Source: Acorus gramineus (Eukaryota; Streptophyta; Magnoliopsida; Acorales; Acoraceae). From it: a DNA stretch of 64,000 bases. Location of the stretch: the NCBI GenBank assembly GCA_030737835.1, contig JAUJYN010000045.1, forward strand, positions 291,464 through 355,463, written 5' to 3'. The notes under the pieces were generated by a model. The model saw only the letters and a program-made list of their open reading frames with translations. It ran no database searches and was not told the origin of the DNA. Below, piece by piece: positions 7,345 through 58,667 of this stretch. Numbering within the stretch: position 1 is the first letter of the stretch; every line of letters starts with the position of its first letter. Made by a program: the position numbers and the translations under genes.

Positions 7345-10300
7345 CTAAATTTGTCGGAAAACCTTCTCTGCAGCCTCCACCGTCCGCTGAATGTCTTCAG
7401 AAGTGTGTGCTAAGCTGGTGAAGCCTGCCTCGAACTGCGACGGTGCCAAATACACCCCCTCCTCTAACATTCCCCTATGGAATCTCCCAAATTTTGCAGT
7501 GTCACTCTTCTTAGCATCCTCAAAATTGTAAACTGGTCCTCCTGTGAAGAAGAAACCAAACATTCCGCGAATGTATCCTCCTGAAACCTCATGCCCAGCC
7601 CTCTTTCCAGCTTCTAAAATCCCATTAACAAGTTCACCGGTGACCTTATCCAAGTACTCATAACAGCCTGGCTCCTTCAGCCGCCTGAGAGTGTGAATGC
7701 CAGCGGTCATTGCCAATGGGTTTCCACTCAAGGTACCCGCTTGGTACATAGGCCCTGCTGGAGCCACCATCTCCATAATTTCTCTCCTTCCACCATAAGC
7801 TCCAACGGGAAGTCCTCCTCCAATGATTTTCCCAAGCGTTGACAGATCAGGAGTTATGCCAAAGTATTCTTGAGCCCCACCATAAGCTAGACGGAATCCG
7901 GTCATTACTTCATCAAATATAAGGAGCGTGCCTTCTTGTTTTGTGATCTCACGAAGGGCATTGAGGAATTCAAGCTTTGGAGTGATGAAGCCTGCATTTC
8001 CAACAACGGGCTCAAGGATCACTGCAGCAATCTCACCCTTGTGGGTATCAAACAGCTTCTCAATTGTCGCGATGTCGTTGTAGGGAGAAGTTAGTGTATC
8101 GGCAGTAGAAGCTTTGGGTACGCCAGGGGAGTCAGGGAGGCCAAGGGTCGCGACCCCACTGCCTGCCTTGACAAGGAAGGGATCTGCATGGCCATGGTAA
8201 CAACCCTCAAATTTGATGATTTTTTGATGCCCAGTGAAGGCTCGTGCAAGACGGAGCACACCCATGCAGGCTTCAGTACCCGAGTTGACAAACCGAACCA
8301 TCTCAATGCTTGGAACAGCAGAAATCACCATCTCAGCTAGCACATTCTCCGAATAGCATGGTGCACCAAAGCTTGTACCTTTCTTTAGGGTCTCAACCAA
8401 AGCTGCATTCACCTGCACATATTGCATGGCATAATGTTTATCATTATGCAAATATGTAACATTGAATACTGATGTTATCTTTGAAATGAGATGGTGACCA
8501 CACACAGTCACACATGCTATGGTTACAGTGTTAACCAACATATAATGCTTTGTCTGCAAAGTTCTCACCTATTAAAGACTGTCATTCTATGCAAAGTAGG
8601 ACTTTATGATTCTTAATTTCTTATTATTGATGGCTATAATCCAGCAGCCAGCCAAACACTTTCAAGGGTGGACCCTTTCTTTCGAGACTGTTTGTCAGTG
8701 GCATGAGATACATGAGTATTTCTAAAACCTTCCTTAACTCCTGGTGCTATTTTAATCTTCCAGATGATATGATTGCTATTTCTTCAGTTCCAGGACTTAA
8801 ATGTGAAACAGATGCACTCCAATTTTCTTGTGTATTCTTTATCTCCAGATTTCCGTAGGAGTCAACTTTAATTTCTAGAAACTGACCAGGAAGATTTACA
8901 ACAAATCACACAGCTGACTTCTAATATTGAGTTACCAAAGTCACCAAGAGAATATAATTTTTTTTCCTTTTCTTGCAAAGAGTTGAATTACTGTTTGTTA
9001 CTTTGAAGTCAACAATATTGTTTAAGTTGCAATATCAGAGTAACATCTACCTGGCAAATTGATTAAAAGGCAATATATATAATTTATAATATAATCAAAG
9101 CATATCATTAGTAGTATGTGCACAATTTTCATCAAATGCTATTCAATCATATAAGAGTGAGATAAGTTAACACAGAGTACTGCTAGACGGAAGAGAAAAG
9201 GAATCACCGTATCATCTGCATGTCCGATGATTGCGGGGCCCCATGATCCAACATAATCGATGTATTCATTACCATCTACATCCCATGCGTGTGAACCCTT
9301 CACAGAATCAAACACAATGGGCTGTCCACCAACTGATTTGAAGGCCCTAACAGGTGAATTAACACCTCCAGGCATCAGATCCTGAATGCATAAAGGGGAA
9401 ATCAATCTCAATAAACAACACAGGAAAAAAAAAGTCATTTTTTGCTTTCTAGGGAAAATACAGTCAACTTACTCAGAAGCAAATGCAATGACTGTAAAAA
9501 GCAAAAAGCTACCATGATGAATCACAAGTCAAATACACTTCAGATAAGATATGATAAATACCAATAACTGTCTAACAGTTAAAATTTATCTTTTTTTTTT
9601 TCTGGATTTTGCTTCTGAAGATCAATAGCCAGATTAAATAGAATGCATTGAGTCCATTGAATGGAAGATTGTGTTCAGAGAATAAGAAGGTCGCAGACGA
9701 AGTCCATGATGCAGTTTTGACATCAACTTAACTAATCAATCCCTTAATTGTCAAAGTTAACTTAAACAAGTTGGGGCCATCAGCCATGTCATGGATCCAG
9801 TTCCACCATTAACAATCAAATGGAAGTTTTTGTAGTTTCTGACTAATTGTAAGTTTCCACCAACATCCAATGCAGAATAAAAGGCCTCCTTTGAATGTCA
9901 ACCTATCTGCTGCTCTTCTTGAAAGTTATAACATTAAGCACAAGCCTCATGTGCATCAAACCATACTATCACTGGTCCTATTCAACAACTAACCAAAATT
10001 TTGAATTTCACATCCCTTATCTTCTGCACATTTTCCCATATAAACTAAAAAAGAATATCTAATTTCTCTCATGCAATTTAAACTTCCAATTTAACACATT
10101 CAGCTCAAATTCCTTCAAATTCACATCAAAACCCAAGAAATCTTAAGAAAGTCAACTGACCCATTTCAAAGAAGAGCAGAACAAACCATCCCAACCCAAC
10201 AAAAAGCTTACTTGACATGGTTATATATGTAAATAAAGAAATATCGGAGAGAGATTGAGAAACCTTCGCAGCCTTGAAGATCTCCTCGGATTTCTGGAGG

Positions 10301-12241: not shown

Positions 12242-14926
12242 ATGGATGATTTGTATCATGTAACATTTCTATATGGTGGATATTGGAAGCCCGTGAAGTC
12301 ACGAAATGGACAGAACTATGTGGAGGGTAAACAGTTCACAAAAATGTTAGACCGTGATAAGATTGCGATGATAGATCTGTGGGATGATTTTTTCAGAGTG
12401 GTCGAATACAAACAGTACAAAATCCATCACTTTTACATATTTGTTGCCTAACCAATTGCCAAAAAAATACGTAGAGGTAAAAACAGATGCCCAATTACTG
12501 GATATATTCAAAGAGAATGAGATAACCCACAAGTTCAGTCTATATGTGATTAGCTCAGATAAAACAGCAGATGAGGTGGTCGAGGCTATTGAGAGGTCAA
12601 AGACAGTGAAGCAGTCAGATGTGGTGGACCTTGATATACATGAAGAAGAGGTGGTTGAGGCTGTTGAGAGGTCAGCAGAAGAAGAGGCTCAAAGGCTTGC
12701 ACAAGAAGAGAGTGAAAGACCCGCACCTACTAAGAGAGTGGTTGACACAGTTGATGAAGAAGGTATTGCAGAGATAGAAAGTGGTGCACAGCTTCCAATT
12801 GAACCAAGTAATGAAGAGTATGTCTTGTGTGGCTCTTTACCCAATGTTGATCAATTATTTGAAGATGATGGTGATGATATTCAAATTGGTGAAGATTTCT
12901 CTAGCAAGTCCCAATATCATGAGGAGGGGTTGGAGGGTGGGAGGGAGTCGTCTGATGAGGAGCTTGGAGGAGAGGAAAACACACATGAGGAGGAGTTGGA
13001 GTATGGTCAGAAGGAGCCTACTGTGCATGAAGAGATGGAGTACTCAGGTACTGACTCTGATGTGTCGGTTAGAGATTAGGGTGGTACTGTTTTGCACTAT
13101 GATCCAGAATTGCTAGTCATGGAGGTGGGATCACAATTTTCCAATGTGGAAGAATTTCGTAATGCACTAAAGCAGCATTGCATTCTGCATGAGTTTGGAG
13201 TAAAGTATATTAAGAATGACAAGTTCAGGGTGACAGCCAAGTGCCAGGGTGTCGATTGTCCATGGCGCATTCATGCCTCCGTCATACAGGACAATGTGAC
13301 ATTTGAAATGAAGACATTGATGAGTGACCACTCATGTACTAGTGTCAATAAAGTGGGCAATGAGATGGCAACATCAATTTGGCTTGCAACAAAGCTTGTT
13401 CCTATTTTACATAGAACCCTTGAAATGGGTGCCTCGAAGATGAAGATGGAGCTTCAACAAAAGTATCACCTTACATTACCCTATGGAAGGGTGTTGGCTG
13501 CTAGGGGAAAGGCAGTGGAGCTCATCTATGGCAAGGCTTCTGACTCATTCCATCTTGTTCCGGAGTTACAGCAGCAGTTGATTCAGTCAAACCCCAGATC
13601 CATTGTCATTTACTTGCTTGATGTTGACCACTCATTCATGAGATTCTTTGTTTGTTTGCATGCATGCTGTTCTGGATTTTTACAAGGGTGTAGGCCCTTC
13701 ATTGGGCTTGATGGATGCCACCTCAAGGGAGGTATAAGGGTATCTTGCTTAGCGCTACTGCCTTGGATGGAAACGGTAATTTATTTTCTTTGGCCTTTGC
13801 TATTGTTGAATCGGAGAGTGGAGAGACATGGAGGTGGTTTCTCGAGGGTTTATATGAGGCTATTGGGATGGTTGAAGGTTTAGCTTTCATGTCCGACAGG
13901 GACAAGGGCCTTGAAGCAGCAGTTCCCATAGTTTATCCTAGCGCAGAGCATCGCACATGTGTGACACTTGTACAAAAACTTCAAAAAGAAGCATCCAGGT
14001 GAGTTGCCTTAGAGACTAGTGTGGATGTGTGCCAATTCATACCACTTGTCAACATTCTTATCTCATATGATAGAGATTAGAAGGGCATCTCCATCAGCAA
14101 CAGCTTACCTTGAAGGAGTAAAAGGTCAAGTGTGGAGTAGACATCAATTCGGGACAGCAGCCAAATCCCATTACCTCACAAATAACTTGTCTGAGTCGTA
14201 CAATGCATGGATAAATAAGGCCAGACAACTGCATATTGTGGAGTTGGTTGACACCATTTGAGGGATGATAATGGTTAGGATGAACTATCGTCGATGCTTG
14301 GGAAGAAAATGGAAAGGCAAGCTTGTACCAAAAGCTTTCAGATATGTTCAGCAGATTTGTAAAGAGAAAGGAAACTACATTGTCAGAAGGAATTCTGATA
14401 TGCAAGCAGAGGTGGTGGGCCCAGAGAACACTTGTGTGGTGAACTTGGAGGACAAAACTTGCACTTGTAGAGCATGGCAGGTGACAGGGTTACCTTGTGA
14501 GCACTCTGCAGCATTTATTGCATCTGTTAGAGGATTGGACATCACATACTTTATTGATGACTACTATAGTGTTTAAAGATTTAGAGCTGCCTATGCCATT
14601 CCAGTGGGGGCTATGCCTGGTAGAGAGATGTGGGGTAGAGTGGAGCTCTCTTATGTGGTGGGTCCTCCAAAAACCATTCGTCCAAGAGGAAGGCCTAAAA
14701 AGAAGAGGATACGTGATCCAAATGAGAAAAGAAAGAGTAGACACAAGTGTACTAGGTGTTCTCAGTTTGGTCACCACAAGAACACATGCAAAAATCCAAT
14801 AACAGAAACAAGTAGTCAAGGAAGTACAAGACACATGAGGTATCCTATTAGCTAATTACATTGTCATTTATCTAGCATTGACATTCATTTATTCAATATT
14901 CATTTATCCAAATTTTCAATGTTTGA

Positions 14927-38415: not shown

Positions 38416-38597
38416 TACTACTTATAAAAGTACCAATCCATGAAAAACATTCATTGGACATATTTACCCTTATCAATTCATGAAAAACCATTCCTATCCC
38501 AAATGATATTTCATCATACATATTTACCCTTTCAAATTATTCGTATTTACCATTTTACATTCTTCACAATCAATTACATGATATCATAAATTTTTTA

Positions 38598-38787
38598 ATA
38601 AATTCAATTTCATTTTATATAATTATATAATATATCTACATATATTATATTGTAACGTTTAGAAAATTCTTATATAAAATAGAAGTCCTATGTTTGTAAT
38701 TATTAATAAAAAATATACAAATATGTAAGGGATAAATTCAATTTCATTTTATATAATTATATAATATATCTACATATATTATATTGT
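38598..38787. repeat. Duplicated AT-rich host segment left of the TRIM insertion
   Basis: The segment 38600-38652 ('taaattcaatttcatttta...atattgt') recurs at 38733-38787. The block 38653-38729 ('aacgtttagaaaattc...') recurs after the insertion at about 40864-40940. So an older tandem duplication of about 133 bp was the target of the insertion. Confidence 0.8.
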
Positions 38788-40169
38788 TGTAACGCCCCAG
38801 GCTTACACAGCAAGAAATTGTCCGCTTTGCCCCTAAATGGGCTCACGGGTTTAAAACGCGTCTTGGTGTGTAAGAGCTGTGCTCACATATAAGCACAGAC
38901 TATCTCCTCCCATTAGGCGATGTGGGACTAAACACCCTCACCCTCACCCAATCCATGGGCCTCTTGGGACTCTTGGGCCTGGGCCAGGCGTCACAATCAC
39001 CCCCTCTAATAGGCCACACGTCCTCGTGTGGGGCCACCCACACCCACCATCGCGTAATGGACAGGCTCTGATACCAATTGTAACGCCCCAGGCTTACACA
39101 GCAAGAAATTGTCCGCTTTGCCCCTAAATGGGCTCACGGGTTTAAAACGCGTCTTGGTGTGTAAGAGCTGTGCTCACATATAAGCACAGACTATCTCCTC
39201 CCATTAGGCGATGTGGGACTAAACACCCTCACCCTCACCCAATCCATGGGCCTCTTGGGACTCTTGGGCCTGGGTCAGGCGTCTCTGATACTAATTGTAA
39301 CGCCTCAGGCTTACATAGCAAGAAATTGTCCGCTTTGCCTCTAAATGGGCTCACGGGTTTAAAACGCGTCTTGGTGTGTAAGAGCTGTGCTCACATATAA
39401 GCACAGACTATCTCCTCCCATTAGGCGATGTGGGACTAAACACCCTCACCCTCACCCAATCCATGGGCCTCTTGGGACTCTTGGGCCTGGGCCAGGCGTC
39501 ACAATCACCCCCTCTAATAGGCCACACGTCCTCGTGTGGGGCCACCCACACCCACCATCGCGAAATGGACAGGCTCTGATACCAATTGTAACGCCCCAGG
39601 CTTACACAGCAAGAAATTGTCCGCTTTGCCCCTAAATGGGCTCACGGGTTTAAAACGCGTCTTGGTGTGTAAGAGCTGTGCTCACATATAAGCACAGACT
39701 ATCTCCTCCCATTAGGCGATGTGGGACTAAACACCCTCACCCTCACCCAATCCATGGGCCTCTTGGGACTCTTGGGCCTGGGCCAGGCGTCACAATCACC
39801 CCCTCTAATAGGCCACACGTCCTCGTGTGGGGCTACCCACACCCACCATCGCGAAATGGACAGGCTCTGATACCAATTGTAACGCCCCAGGCTTACACAG
39901 TAAGAAATTGTCCGCTTTGCCCCTAAATGGGCTCACGGGTTTAAAACGCGTCTTGGTGTGTAAGAGCTGTGCTCACATATAAGCACAGACTATCTCCTCC
40001 CATTAGGCGATGTGGGACTAAACACCCTCACCCTCACCCAATCCAGGGGCCTCTTGGGACTCTTGGGCTTGATCCAGGAGTCACAATAACCCCCTCTAAT
40101 AGGCCACACGTCCTCGTGTGGGGCCACTCACACCCACCATCGCGAAATGGACAGGCTCTGATACCATTC
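38788..40169 (-). mobile_element. Tandem array of TRIM elements (LTR kin), five units
   Basis: Five head-to-tail units, most of them 291 bp and one shorter, each read on the minus strand. A unit is an LTR of about 208 bp, which starts TGTGACGCC and ends GGGGCGTTACA, then an internal piece of about 83 bp. The internal piece starts, two bases after the LTR, with TGGTATCAGAGCC, the initiator-tRNA-Met primer site. It ends in a purine-rich tract (agagggggtg) before the next LTR. There is no coding capacity, as is normal for TRIMs, so it depends on other elements. The units are very alike, which points to recent spread by unequal exchange between LTRs. A related single LTR is at 57901-58667. Confidence 0.88.
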
Positions 40170-40858
40170 TGTGACGCCCCCAAATCCACGACTCCGTTTT
40201 GAAGTGTGAAATCCGGGTGCGTTAACTAAATTCCTCGAATCTCAGAGTTCTATATATATATATAGATATATTTTTCATCCAGAGAACATACAAATACATC
40301 ACCATAATTATACATATATTGTCAACGCTAAAATCCAACACAAATTCAATATACATCGAAAACAACTTAATTTATATATCCACACTATCATACATATGGG
40401 TCCTCTACATGCCAAAGAAATGACCAACACCTTTTACACAAGTCTAGTGCTCCGAAAATAAAATACGAGCTTCAACCTCCAACACCTTAACGAGATCGAC
40501 AACCTTTCAGATTAACTGTTGGTGGTTGTCGATCTCGTTAAGGCGTTGGAGTTTGAAGCTCGTATTTTATTTTCGGAGCACTAGACTTGTGTAAAAGGTG
40601 TTGGTCATTTCTTTGGCATGTAGAGGACCCATATGTATGATAGTGTGGATATATAAATTAAGTTGTTTTCGATGTATATTGAATTTGTGTTGGATTTTAG
40701 CGTTGACAATATATGTATAATTATGGTGATGTATTTGTATGTTCTCTGGATGAAAAATATATCTATATATATATATAGAACTCTGAGATTCGAGGAATTT
40801 AGTTAACGCACCCGGATTTCACACTTCAAAACGGAGTCGTGGATTTGGGGGCGTCACA
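40170..40858. repeat. Near-perfect palindrome, 335-bp arms with a 19-bp centre
   Basis: Arms 40170-40504 and 40524-40858 are inverse copies with only two mismatches seen, both near the centre. Each arm begins at its outer end with TGTGACGCCCCCAAATCC, an LTR-like start. The right outer end is the CA terminus of the whole insertion. The centre is tttcagattaactgttggt. The arms look like facing LTR fragments of a different family from the TRIM array. Transcription in either direction would give a long hairpin RNA. Confidence 0.92.
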
Positions 40859-40991
40859 ATTGTAACGTTTAGAAAATCCTTATATAAAATAGAAGTCCTA
40901 TGTTTGTAATTATTAATAAAAAAAATATACAAATATGTAAGGGAGATAAAATTGAACCAAAAATTAATATATACCCTTTCAATTACATGTT

Positions 40992-41260
40992 GTTTACCCT
41001 TAACAATTCATGAAAATCTATTCCTATCGAAAATTATTTTTGATTAGACATATTTACCTTTTCAAATTATTCCAATCTAAATTATAAAAAAACCGTAATA
41101 TATGTTATATTACATGCACATTTTTGTTTACCCTTAACAATTCATGAAAATCTATTCCTATCAAAAATTATTTTTGATCAGACATATTTACCCTTTCAAA
41201 TTATTCTAATCTAAATTATAAAAAAACTGTAATATATGTTATATTACATGCACATTTTTA
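40992..41260. repeat. Two-copy tandem repeat, period 134 bp
   Basis: Copies start gtttacccttaacaattcat at 40992 and 41126 and are nearly identical. A partial third copy of the right half lies at about 41345-41400, and a diverged one at about 38450-38540. Confidence 0.8.
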
Positions 41261-44200
41261 TCCTTATATATTTTTGAGAGATTTAATAAATAATGACAAT
41301 CTATCAAATTATAAATTGTATCGTGAAGTTTATGTTTAAATCAATGTATCTAAATTATTACAAAATCCTAATATATATTATATTACATGCACATGTTACC
41401 ATATTAACCTATATATATTTAATGATCGACGAAGACACTGTTAATTTTGAAAATTTTCAATACAAAACCAGGGCATCCCCTTTAATTGTTTGGCTTCTCA
41501 TCTTTCCCCCTCATAAAACCTTCGGCTTCATTCCCTAGCCATTAAATCCCACCGTTAAAACCCCTCATCTTCTCCGACATGTCAATCGACGCCCTTCCAG
41601 AAACGGTCGCATTCATTCGCACGACATTGAGGAGCTCCACCGGCAAAGCACGATCATCCCCGTCCCTATTTATGTGGATCCATCGTCGATCTCTCCTTTC
41701 TGTAAAAAAAAAAAAATATGCCATTACGAAGGTTCGGTCAGTATATATCATGCACACTTTGATTCACAAATGTTAATTTTTTTCATTTAATCCCCCTTTT
41801 TTGGTTTATTTTGGTTGTTCTTTAATTTTTTTTTAATGGTCTTCTCATCGTTATGTATGAGGAAAAAAATTATGTTCTTCCACTCATTGTTTATTATAGG
41901 TACAGTTAGACTTCACTTCGTCATTCTCTGTCATATTTATTTTTTTGTATGTATTTTTTATGGGCTACTCATTGTTATGTATGAGGAAAAAAAATTTGTT
42001 CTTCAACTCTGTATTTTTTTTAAAATAATGTTCTGCTTTTTTTTTGTTATAGGTTCATATATTTAATAATGTTTTTTTTTTTTATTTCACTTCTTCATTC
42101 ACTTCATTATTTCTTTCTCTGTTGCTGCTCAAGTGAAACAAGACACATCATAGTGAGAGATGTTCTTAACTAGGAATTAAATATCAATATAGCCAAAACC
42201 TTCAACCCTAATGATTTACAACAACATTCCAATGCTGTGCTATAGTATTAAGTTTTCATTTACATTCGTCTGTGGCAAGATTATCATGTTATGAATTTTT
42301 TTTACCCTTCTTAATCAATGTTTGCAATTTTTCTTCTTATTCTTGCATCTTGTCTTTCATTCTTAGTTGTAACACAAAAGTGAAAATAAGAAATCTAATA
42401 CAAAATATATTGTTTTGCTCTTAACAGATTCTTCTTCGTTTCTCTATTGTGGTTGGACGTAGGACAGGTGTGCATATTGTGGTGAGTGCCTTGATTAAAA
42501 TAATGTTTGCTTACATCATTTTTTCGTATTGCAACTATGAGTTATTTGAATATTCATTTTTTGTTGGATGAAGATTTTTGAATTTTTTTTTATATTTTTT
42601 GCAATGTGATTTTCATGAATTTCAGCTCAGGCAAGTGAGAAGATTGGTCTTTTGCTTTTGCTTGTAATTAAAATTTCACTTTTATCTGTGTTATTTAAAT
42701 TTGTATTTTATAATTTAGTTTAAGTAACACATCCATATACATGCAAATTCCTGCTGTAAATGATCAGAGGTGAAGCTTTTTATGTATAATATATACAGCT
42801 AATACGGGGGATTCCTTTTGGAGGAAAGATAATTTCATTAAAGCATGCTATGGGACTGAAATTGTGCTATATACCCTTAACCTTCAACTTTCATAATTTG
42901 TTTACCATCCAAATGTTGTGCTATAGTATTAAGTTTTCATTTACATTCGTCTGTTGGCAAAGGAGGATAACTTTATTTTGGGTTTGGTGGAGTTAATGCC
43001 AAAACTGGCTTTTAAATTTTTAGTTTCTTTTAGTTAATCCAGCATTTAGACTTTTTTTCCTTCTTTCTGAAGTTTGGTTAATTGTTATGCTTCTCTTGAT
43101 TTAAAAACTATCTAGGAAAAGTTTAGCCCTCTATATTTTGAGTCTGTTAAGAAGTATTTGATTTTTGTATTAGTCTCTTTATATTTTTTTTAGTTATATG
43201 AGTTTAGTTATACTCATTCTGTGGATGTGTTTGAAGGCTACTTTAGGCTTGTCATTAAATATTTATATGTTCTGTGTGTCATCAGTGTCTTTTGTAGCAA
43301 CTACAATCCTTATGAAAATTATATATATAAGGTTTGAAGTTTAAAATATTTTTAAAAAATGACTCACTATTGTGTTTTCAGTTTTCTCTTAGTTGTTGTG
43401 GCTAATTAAAATTGAAACTTTTTAGGCTTTACTTGAGGTTACACGGTGTTTCCAACTTTTTCTCTACCTCTTCATTTGAAATGTTGATCTCTCCGGTGTT
43501 TCCAACTTGAAAGATTGATGATGGTTTAGGATAGGCCTCCTCTAACAATAAACAGAAGAGGTCTCTTTTACAATAGATTGAGGAACTACCACCATTGCCA
43601 CTGCTTGTATAGCTTTGGAATTGTTTTTCCATCTCTTCAGTTCAGGATTCCTTTTATACGTTTCCTACCTACATAGGGAAAGTTAAAAGAAGCAAAAAAA
43701 GAATAGAAAAGCCATCACCTCTGACATACTGAGACCATCTCATGGATACCAATTCAACACTTCATCCAAAAACAAAACTGGCCCATGTCAATAAATTGAA
43801 CAACCGTTAAGCATTCTTATAGTCCAAAAAATTCAAATGGATTCTTATAGTCCAAATGGATACTAACCAAGAAATCTCCTGCATGTATATAGTTCCCATA
43901 TCCATTGACTGACCCATCTCTACTTCCAGCTGTTTCACAATGAACTCTTTTTCCCTGCCAATCTCCTTTTTTGTGGCACCATTGGCGATAGAGCAAATTT
44001 CTGATAAAAAAACTACAATAAGATGATAGAATGACAAGTAGTTGCAATTAAAAAAAAAAGGCTCTTGTCGACAGGCTATGTACAAGCATCCAGCATGTGG
44101 ATTTCATTTTTACAAGGCTATGTACAGGCTCTTGTAGAATGATTCTGTCTTATTTTCTTCCTTTGTGGATTTCATATTCCCTACCCTCTCATCTCCATCT

Positions 44201-57900: not shown

Positions 57901-58667
57901 GTGATGCATCGGGATAGTTAAGAGGCCCAAAATTCTTGAGAGGCTCATGGATTGGATAATGATGAGGATGAGGAAGAGGGCCGAGTGAGGTGTGTTTAGT
58001 CCCACATCACATGATATGTGTTTATATGTGAGGATGAGGGTGTAATTCGGTAGATTTAGTTCAGTTTTTTGCAAACTCAAATTGAACCGAACTATATTCA
58101 CATGTAACCTGAAACCGAATCGAAAATCTAAAACTGAACCAAATCGATTTTTGTTTGGTTAAACTGAACTAGACTAAACCGAACCGTTAAAGATTGATGG
58201 GTTGGTTAGAGTTTTTTGGGAGGTTGGTTTACAACTTTACATAAATATCAAAATGCTAGAATTGATTGTATAAATTAATATATTCATTTTTTATGAATAT
58301 TAATGCTATAACAAGAATATAGTTTTTAATATAAAAAGAATGATGTAAATGAATACTGATTATGAATAATCATGTGTTTAAATTTAATTCAGTTCAGATC
58401 GATTAATTCAGTTTTTTTTAAGTAAAACTAAACCCAAATCAATGTAGATCGGTTTATTAATTTTTAATCCATACCCAAATCAAACCATAAAACTATTGAC
58501 TCAAACCCGAAAAAAATCGGTTTGGATCAGTTTAGACTCGATTTAATCGACCAAAGTTGCACCCCTAATGCAAGTACAACTCTTACACACCCAGATGTAT
58601 TTTAAAGCCATTAGCCCACAAATGACGAAGCGGATTATACCTTTGTGTGTAAGCCTGGGGAGTTAAC
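57901..58667 (+). mobile_element. Single diverged TRIM LTR, interrupted by an hAT-type element
   Basis: Read on the plus strand it follows the array LTR: 'ttagtcccacatca', 'tgtttatatgtgag', then after the interruption 'caactcttacacaccca', 'ccattagcccacaaatgacg' and 'gtgtgtaagcctgggg'. It is clearly more diverged than the array copies, hence older. No internal region is attached. Confidence 0.7.
58035..58568. mobile_element. hAT-type MITE nested in the TRIM LTR
   Basis: The ends are tgagggtgtaattcggt and, inverted, ttaggggtgcaactttggt. Flanks tgtgagga and tgcaagta are degraded copies of the tgtgagca found at this place in the intact array LTR, which fits an 8-bp duplication. Inside are many 'aaccgaa' and 'ttcggtt'-type motifs in both orientations. 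Confidence 0.7.

Follow-up and report, generated by a model that had tools for sequence, protein, structure and literature searches.

A TRIM array and a folded LTR end within a single target-site duplication in Acorus gramineus, probably a reverse-transcription chimera

The window analysed here, a 64,000 nt stretch of the Acorus gramineus genome, has open frames at 12384-13883 and 7345-8568 (minus strand) in the open-frame list, which by eye we take to resemble a MULE/FAR1-type transposase and a glutamate-1-semialdehyde aminotransferase, respectively. At 38788-40858 it contains an insertion composed of a tandem TRIM array (38788-40169) and a 689 bp palindrome (40170-40858), with one ATTGT duplication around both. 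The two copies of this target-site duplication (TSD) were read from the window sequence at 38783-38787 and 40859-40863, and the outer termini of the insertion are TGTAAC and GTCACA. The unoccupied target (..ATATTGTAACGTTT..) lies 134 bp upstream of the insertion, within a local 134 bp duplicate (38598-38731) to which the left and right flanks, once joined, align across the junction; it is a paralogous duplicate within the window, and not an allele from another accession. The initial annotation, which had proposed the bounding duplication, the surviving pre-insertion sequence, the palindrome and its TGT...ACA outer ends, is borne out by the sequence on each of these. When shifted 5-mers on the flanks of five such insertions were compared as a control, only 71 of 15120 comparisons matched (0.5%), hence the agreement of the ATTGT flanks is not attributable to chance. 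An alternative in which the palindrome is a nested insertion in its own right, with a separate TSD, was ruled out by eye, its left neighbours being CATTC and its right neighbours ATTGT. The target ATTGTAACG (40859-40867 and 38649-38657) has nine bases in common with the TRIM internal/LTR junction ATTGTAACG; this likeness is taken as chance, since the targets of the other composites described below show nothing similar.

The array belongs to a family here termed TRIM A and consists of five LTRs of 205-208 bp, four full internal pieces and one 12 nt remnant, with its sense on the minus strand. Sequence comparison delimits, all on that strand, LTR1 (38788-38995; the 3' LTR of the array in element sense, providing the outer U5 end), internal piece 1 with its primer-binding site (PBS; 38996-39078), LTR2, lacking its first three bases (39079-39283), the 12 nt remnant of internal piece 2 (39284-39295), LTR3 (39296-39503), internal piece 3 (39504-39586), LTR4 (39587-39794), internal piece 4 (39795-39877), LTR5 (39878-40085) and internal piece 5 (40086-40166), the PBS of which is TGGTATCAGAGCC at 40154-40166. 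Five TRIM units had originally been described; five LTRs are indeed present, but the units are unequal, with the second retaining just 12 nt of the internal piece of around 83 bp. The same comparison places a GAA spacer between U5 and PBS at 40167-40169 (minus strand), as in the 5' LTRs of the family B elements discussed below, whereas within the array AT precedes the PBS after every LTR with a full internal piece. In element sense the order is therefore palindrome-GAA-PBS (TGGTATCAGAGCC)-internal piece 5-LTR5-internal piece 4-LTR4-internal piece 3-LTR3-12 nt remnant-LTR2-internal piece 1-LTR1, and this order, together with the change of spacer from AT inside the array to GAA at its edge, indicates that the palindrome occupies the place of the array's 5' LTR.

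Several features identify the array as TRIM: LTRs of 208 bp, an 83 bp internal piece with the PBS TGGTATCAGAGC and the PPT-like AGAGGGGG adjoining the LTR, a unit of less than 1 kb with no coding room, and a TSD within the 4-6 bp of this class. The PBS is of what we take to be the initiator-Met tRNA type. Plain or nested TRIM A sites read on both flanks had a 5 bp TSD by eye in six of seven cases, the one without being C43:1215980. An Rfam scan of 38500-41500 (E up to 1) detected no 5S-like sequence, the hallmark of Cassandra; its three weak, sub-threshold microRNA matches, at the palindrome centre, were set aside as what would be expected of any hairpin. A diverged relative of the TRIM A LTR (75-77%) is found in pieces at 57923-58665 of the window.

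The TRIM A LTR (e.g. 39587-39794, minus strand) also contains GTCCCACATCG 25 nt above the TATA-like TTATATG, a spacing that we presume to be U6-like, and hence of the Pol III type. The inferred start of the TRIM A RNA lies 28 nt below this box, and the TTTT found just after it speaks against a Pol III reading of the LTR. The USE of plant snRNA genes, to which GTCCCACATCG corresponds, has the consensus RTCCCACATCG in the available text of PMC9845283.

The junction formed by the 12 nt remnant occurs exactly twice in the genome (allowing up to two mismatches), in the window and at C1:29687937, and both carriers are composites of TRIM A with B; over 236 nt the two stretches are 98.3% alike. Given this common junction, the array of the window is likely to have been mobilised as RNA and to have encountered B on two or more occasions.

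The palindrome has arms of 335 bp, differing at two positions, around a 19 nt centre at 40505-40523. A genome search with one arm gave at least 41 matches, two of which were the window's own arms (the best 40 of 639 candidates were scored), and all 28 loci taken as native ends of LTR B (L003-L030) yielded an aligned end. In 5' LTRs of B (e.g. L007, L009, L010, L012-L014 and L016), the U5 end is followed by GAA-TGGTATCAGAGC, the same join as in the window, which identifies the arms as the last 335 bp of LTR B, one in sense and one inverted. Comparison with native LTR B accordingly assigns 40170-40504 (minus strand) to an inner arm, the U5 side of the LTR with its sense toward the PBS, and 40524-40858 (plus strand) to an outer arm, an inverted LTR end that stops exactly at the U5 terminus; the loop (40505-40523, plus strand) runs on into the outer arm without a break, just as it does in native LTR B. 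GAA was abandoned as a marker exclusive to B, since one TRIM A copy, at C1:21281145, carries it as well.

The geometry of the fold can be read directly from the same comparison. In antisense, native LTR B runs ..GACAACC-ACCAACAG(C/T)TAATCTGAAA-GGTTGGG..., and the window follows it through GGTTG before reversing as ..GGTTGTCGATCTC. A 3' end in GGTTG pairing with the CAACC 19 nt behind it, forming a 5 bp stem and a 19 nt loop, would give exactly this structure. Relative to the commonest base among the 28 native ends, the two arms have seven variants in common, from which it appears that both probably derive from one copy. With native LTR B as the reference, both differences between the arms sit in the inner one: at the first, all 28 natives agree with the outer arm, and at the second 22 of 28 do so, with four siding with the inner arm. 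This is as expected if the inner arm were copied from the outer one, the latter being the first strand, two changes being a weak count. The palindrome centre occurs once in the genome, and two further matches, at three mismatches, are the native LTR form. The fold sits around 67 nt below the TATA-like box of B; relative to the start that this box suggests, itself only a prediction, the strong-stop DNA would have ended approximately 35 nt too early.

Element B has an LTR of around 2.45 kb and an internal region of around 1.38 kb (L033), and is by length a large-LTR non-autonomous element, its LTRs being long and its internal region too short for gag-pol. In addition to its normal PBS, this internal region (e.g. 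L033 2999-4377) has an inverted one (GGCTCTGATACAGAATGGTATCAGAGC), which has the look of a former primer-site fold-back that became fixed in the family; another PBS-to-PBS fold is found at C58:748396. A further element, D, is located inside a composite at C32. Pfam matches on four unmended frame pieces, which carry no implication of intactness, give gag, aspartyl protease, RT, RNase H and integrase domains in the order of an autonomous Ty3/gypsy element; rve scored 31.6 bits, just under the curated cut-off of 32.6, whilst the other integrase domains pass. The same search of unmended frame pieces found no chromodomain family in D at E <= 0.001; D may belong to the Tekay-type chromoviruses, which have a chromodomain at the integrase end. 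D and B have around 650 bp of their LTRs in common at 90-91% identity, and their PPT regions match over 41 bp at 95%. Through the PBS, the U5 of D joins the TRIM A internal piece at either end of the C32 composite; the U5/PBS spacer of D itself is known from such chimeras only, and reads GAG at the D-A joints. The gag-pol domains of D, its likeness to B and its PBS joins with TRIM A suggest that D, or an intact relative, is the likely source of the proteins, a helper role that we infer for a D-type element.

TRIM A was searched for across the genome (398.6 Mb in 137 contigs), scoring the best candidates only, so that all counts are lower bounds. At least 115 pieces were found in 38 clusters, corresponding to around 35 sites after merging three pairs, and 15 of the sites listed, chosen as the best matches, were read in detail. 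Six were TRIM A joined to B or D (the window, C1, C82, C58:743844-749394, C32 and C58:664k), two were A-only inverted (C7:6220971-6221971 and C58:756681-757910), one was TRIM A nested in LTR B (C1:21280940) and the remaining six were plain single or tandem TRIM A. The insertions include a B and A composite at C1:29683479-29688648 (TSD GTTTC), an A-B-A composite with its outer parts inverted at C82:595498-600597 (TGAGT), an A-D-A composite at C32:11063696-11073584 (AAACA) and head-to-head TRIM A at C7:6220971-6221971 (CTACA). At C58:664k, the LTR and PBS of D lead via a short other internal piece to LTR A. At C7:12582.7k and C54:1937.3k there are two older joins, in which a B-like LTR leads through a PBS to a TRIM internal piece.

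A direct 5 bp TSD bounds five of the seven composite or inverted insertions for which both ends were read, the window included. The comparison with shifted controls covered these five, the two C58 sites having been left out since their flanks lack a direct match, and the outer flanks of C58:664k, C7:12.58M and C54 lying outside it; the TSD was present in 5/5 tested sites, against 71/15120 of the controls. Neither of the two C58 composites has a direct TSD, their flanks being AGCAA/TTTTT and TTGCT/AAAAA, which fits two insertions with TSDs AGCAA and AAAAA later joined by one inversion between them. Across C58:743844-757910, the two inverted TRIM composites have their outer flanks swapped and complemented, as if the approximately 7 kb between them had been inverted by recombination.

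Further copies of the array/palindrome junction, for which the initial annotation had recommended searching, fall into two kinds of result: the palindrome centre is unique, but the junction of ACA-GAA-PBS and TRIM internal piece (a 27-base pattern, up to two mismatches) has nine matches in the genome and none in the control. In the eight of these nine that were read upstream (all but C5:2.6M), the sequence there is B or B-like in three cases (the window, C7:12.58M and C54), D in two (C32, twice) and TRIM A in three (C1:21.28M, C5:10.9M and C5:21.0M). Joins of A with B or D are found at the PBS in the window, at both C32 ends and at C58:664k, C7:12.58M and C54, such that several integrated chimeras are joined at the primer-binding site. 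Others, between A and B, lie away from it: at C1, a short AAT common to both marks the passage from the U5-GAAT of B to LTR A, near position 176 of the latter; at the left of C82, U5-GAAT is followed by a few odd bases and then position 35 of the internal piece; at the right, 18 nt of antisense B U5 precede LTR A position 130; and at C58:744511, B U5 enters LTR A at about 123. Sense TRIM A starts at LTR position 130-132 at the right of C82 and at the two C58 head-to-head joints, although these two are identical in sequence and may go back to a single origin, and thus may not be independent. As the TATA-like box at LTR position 104 places the RNA start 26-28 nt below it, 130-132 is the expected end of strong-stop DNA.

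The window insertion is thus probably a reverse-transcription chimera that integrated once. That its two parts entered as one unit, as had been proposed from the sequence, is very probable: there is a single TSD, the end of the palindrome coincides exactly with an LTR terminus, and a further four insertions of this kind each have one TSD. The exact route that we think reasonably likely begins with self-primed strong-stop DNA of B, proceeds by PBS-guided transfer onto TRIM A and ends in integration via two U5 ends. In the order of steps that we infer, one virus-like particle would have packaged the RNA of element B together with that of a tandem TRIM A array, priming of each being at the same PBS. 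Synthesis of first-strand DNA would have started at the primer site of B and passed through U5 on its way to the 5' end of the RNA, and before completion the 3' end of this DNA, ..GGTTG, would have folded back on CAACC. Extension of the folded strand along itself could then have reached its 5' end and continued into the primer tRNA, giving U5'-loop-U5-PBS. With its PBS, this new 3' end may next have undergone second strand transfer in trans, the acceptor being the TRIM array's first-strand DNA. The product would have had U5 termini at both ends, that of B at one and that of TRIM A at the other, for integrase to insert with an ordinary 5 bp duplication. Against this route stand the position of the fold, some 35 nt short of the predicted start, the GAA in one TRIM A copy, the 4/28 natives that side with the inner arm, the several related joins away from the PBS, the 0/2 direct TSDs of the C58 composites and the nine-base likeness of the target.

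Alternatively, the first event may have been insertion of the TRIM array, complete with a normal 5' LTR and the TSD ATTGT, this LTR having been replaced by the palindrome in a later chromosomal fold-back or gene conversion with a B copy. Replication fold-backs can generate inverted repeats, and the palindrome fills exactly the place of the missing LTR; nevertheless, such a replacement would have to coincide exactly with an LTR terminus at each side and leave the TSD intact, and it leaves the other single-TSD composites unexplained, making it unlikely. For the same reasons of TSD, terminus and recurrence, growth of the palindrome on the edge of an earlier insertion, the other possibility initially raised, is less favoured than entry as a single unit. 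The chimera might instead have formed earlier elsewhere, with the window copy a later transposition. Whilst the remnant junction common to C1 suits an array that moved as RNA, the palindrome centre is found only once in the genome, and a normal cycle would give two matching LTRs rather than outer termini of B and A; we regard this as decidedly improbable. Palindromes and tandem repeats are both prone to assembly error, yet an artefact at the repeat and hairpin is very improbable, given four unlinked insertions of the same kind with different TSDs, and a TSD and unoccupied duplicate that are coherent with one another. Finally, fusion of separate neighbouring A and B insertions by deletion or unequal recombination, with the flanks matching by chance, is barely credible even though recombinant complexes outnumber the others 20 to 2 in the Triticeae set of Sabot & Schulman and the two C58 sites suggest that recombination between such copies also occurs, as fusions should be without flanking TSDs according to the accessible part of that study (PMC1950507), whereas all five tested sites have them, against 0.5% of control 5-mers.

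If the insertion is indeed a reverse-transcription chimera, its relevance extends beyond this locus. The element that moves a given TRIM is mostly unknown: in the available text of Gao et al. 2016, 278 of 289 TRIM subfamilies had no identified element encoding the enzymes that they require (PMC4717578). Chimeras that must have been made in one particle name the partners without relying on sequence likeness, and the cross-family joins are evidence for TRIM A sharing particles with B and D. We tentatively suggest, as a reading that falls a little short of probable, that TRIM A is packaged as one group with the large-LTR element B and the gag-pol element D, that the chimeras record misdirected reverse transcription and that self-primed strong-stop hairpins carrying a U5 at each end truly serve as substrates for integration. 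Were this so, the helper of a TRIM could in general be sought through joins of this kind. The fold-back end suggests that self-primed cDNA can be integrated, and offers a route to inverted TRIM dimers with two U5 ends.

The initial annotation had known of no standard element with this structure, which holds for the insertion as a whole but not for its kind: template-switching complexes and inverted TRIM pairs are already in print, and the window insertion is a variant thereof. The accessible sections of Sabot & Schulman 2007 describe complexes that arise by template switching between co-packaged RNAs, with several LTR and internal segments inside one 5 bp TSD, as here; these are direct LTR-int-LTR-int-LTR arrangements of a single family with outer LTRs that are alike, whereas the window joins different families, a TRIM and a large-LTR element, at a PBS, with one fold-back end (PMC1950507). 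One TSD surrounds all parts of the window insertion, but its outermost ends, a TRIM A LTR and a folded LTR B end, differ, hence it is outside the strict published class whilst working like one of its members. Gao et al. 2016 report tandem TRIM arrays of LTRs and internal pieces and one inverted pair bounded by a 5 bp TSD; in contrast to the window and related composites, no cross-family or gag-pol join, nor a palindrome of an LTR end, features in the available part of that work (PMC4717578). Tandem Cassandra arrays similarly consist of TRIMs with the PBS TGGTATCAGAGC, but the portion of the source at hand places a 5S sequence in their LTRs (PMC7215508), for which 38500-41500 of the window has no Rfam match. 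Template switching of Tnt1 in plants is already known from sources available in part, and TRIM chimeras as such are not new, since the accessible text of a review names those of the Veju TRIM and BARE-2 (PMC13317346); among the open-licence titles and abstracts listed, none describes a TRIM whose PBS joins it to either a gag-pol element or the folded end of an LTR. The closest parallel to the fold itself is the self-priming of HIV-1 minus strong-stop DNA, which likewise folds back and primes its own extension; there, in the part of the study available, self-priming competes with strand transfer, whereas here the fold-back product was seemingly completed by PBS transfer and integrated (PMC4668388).
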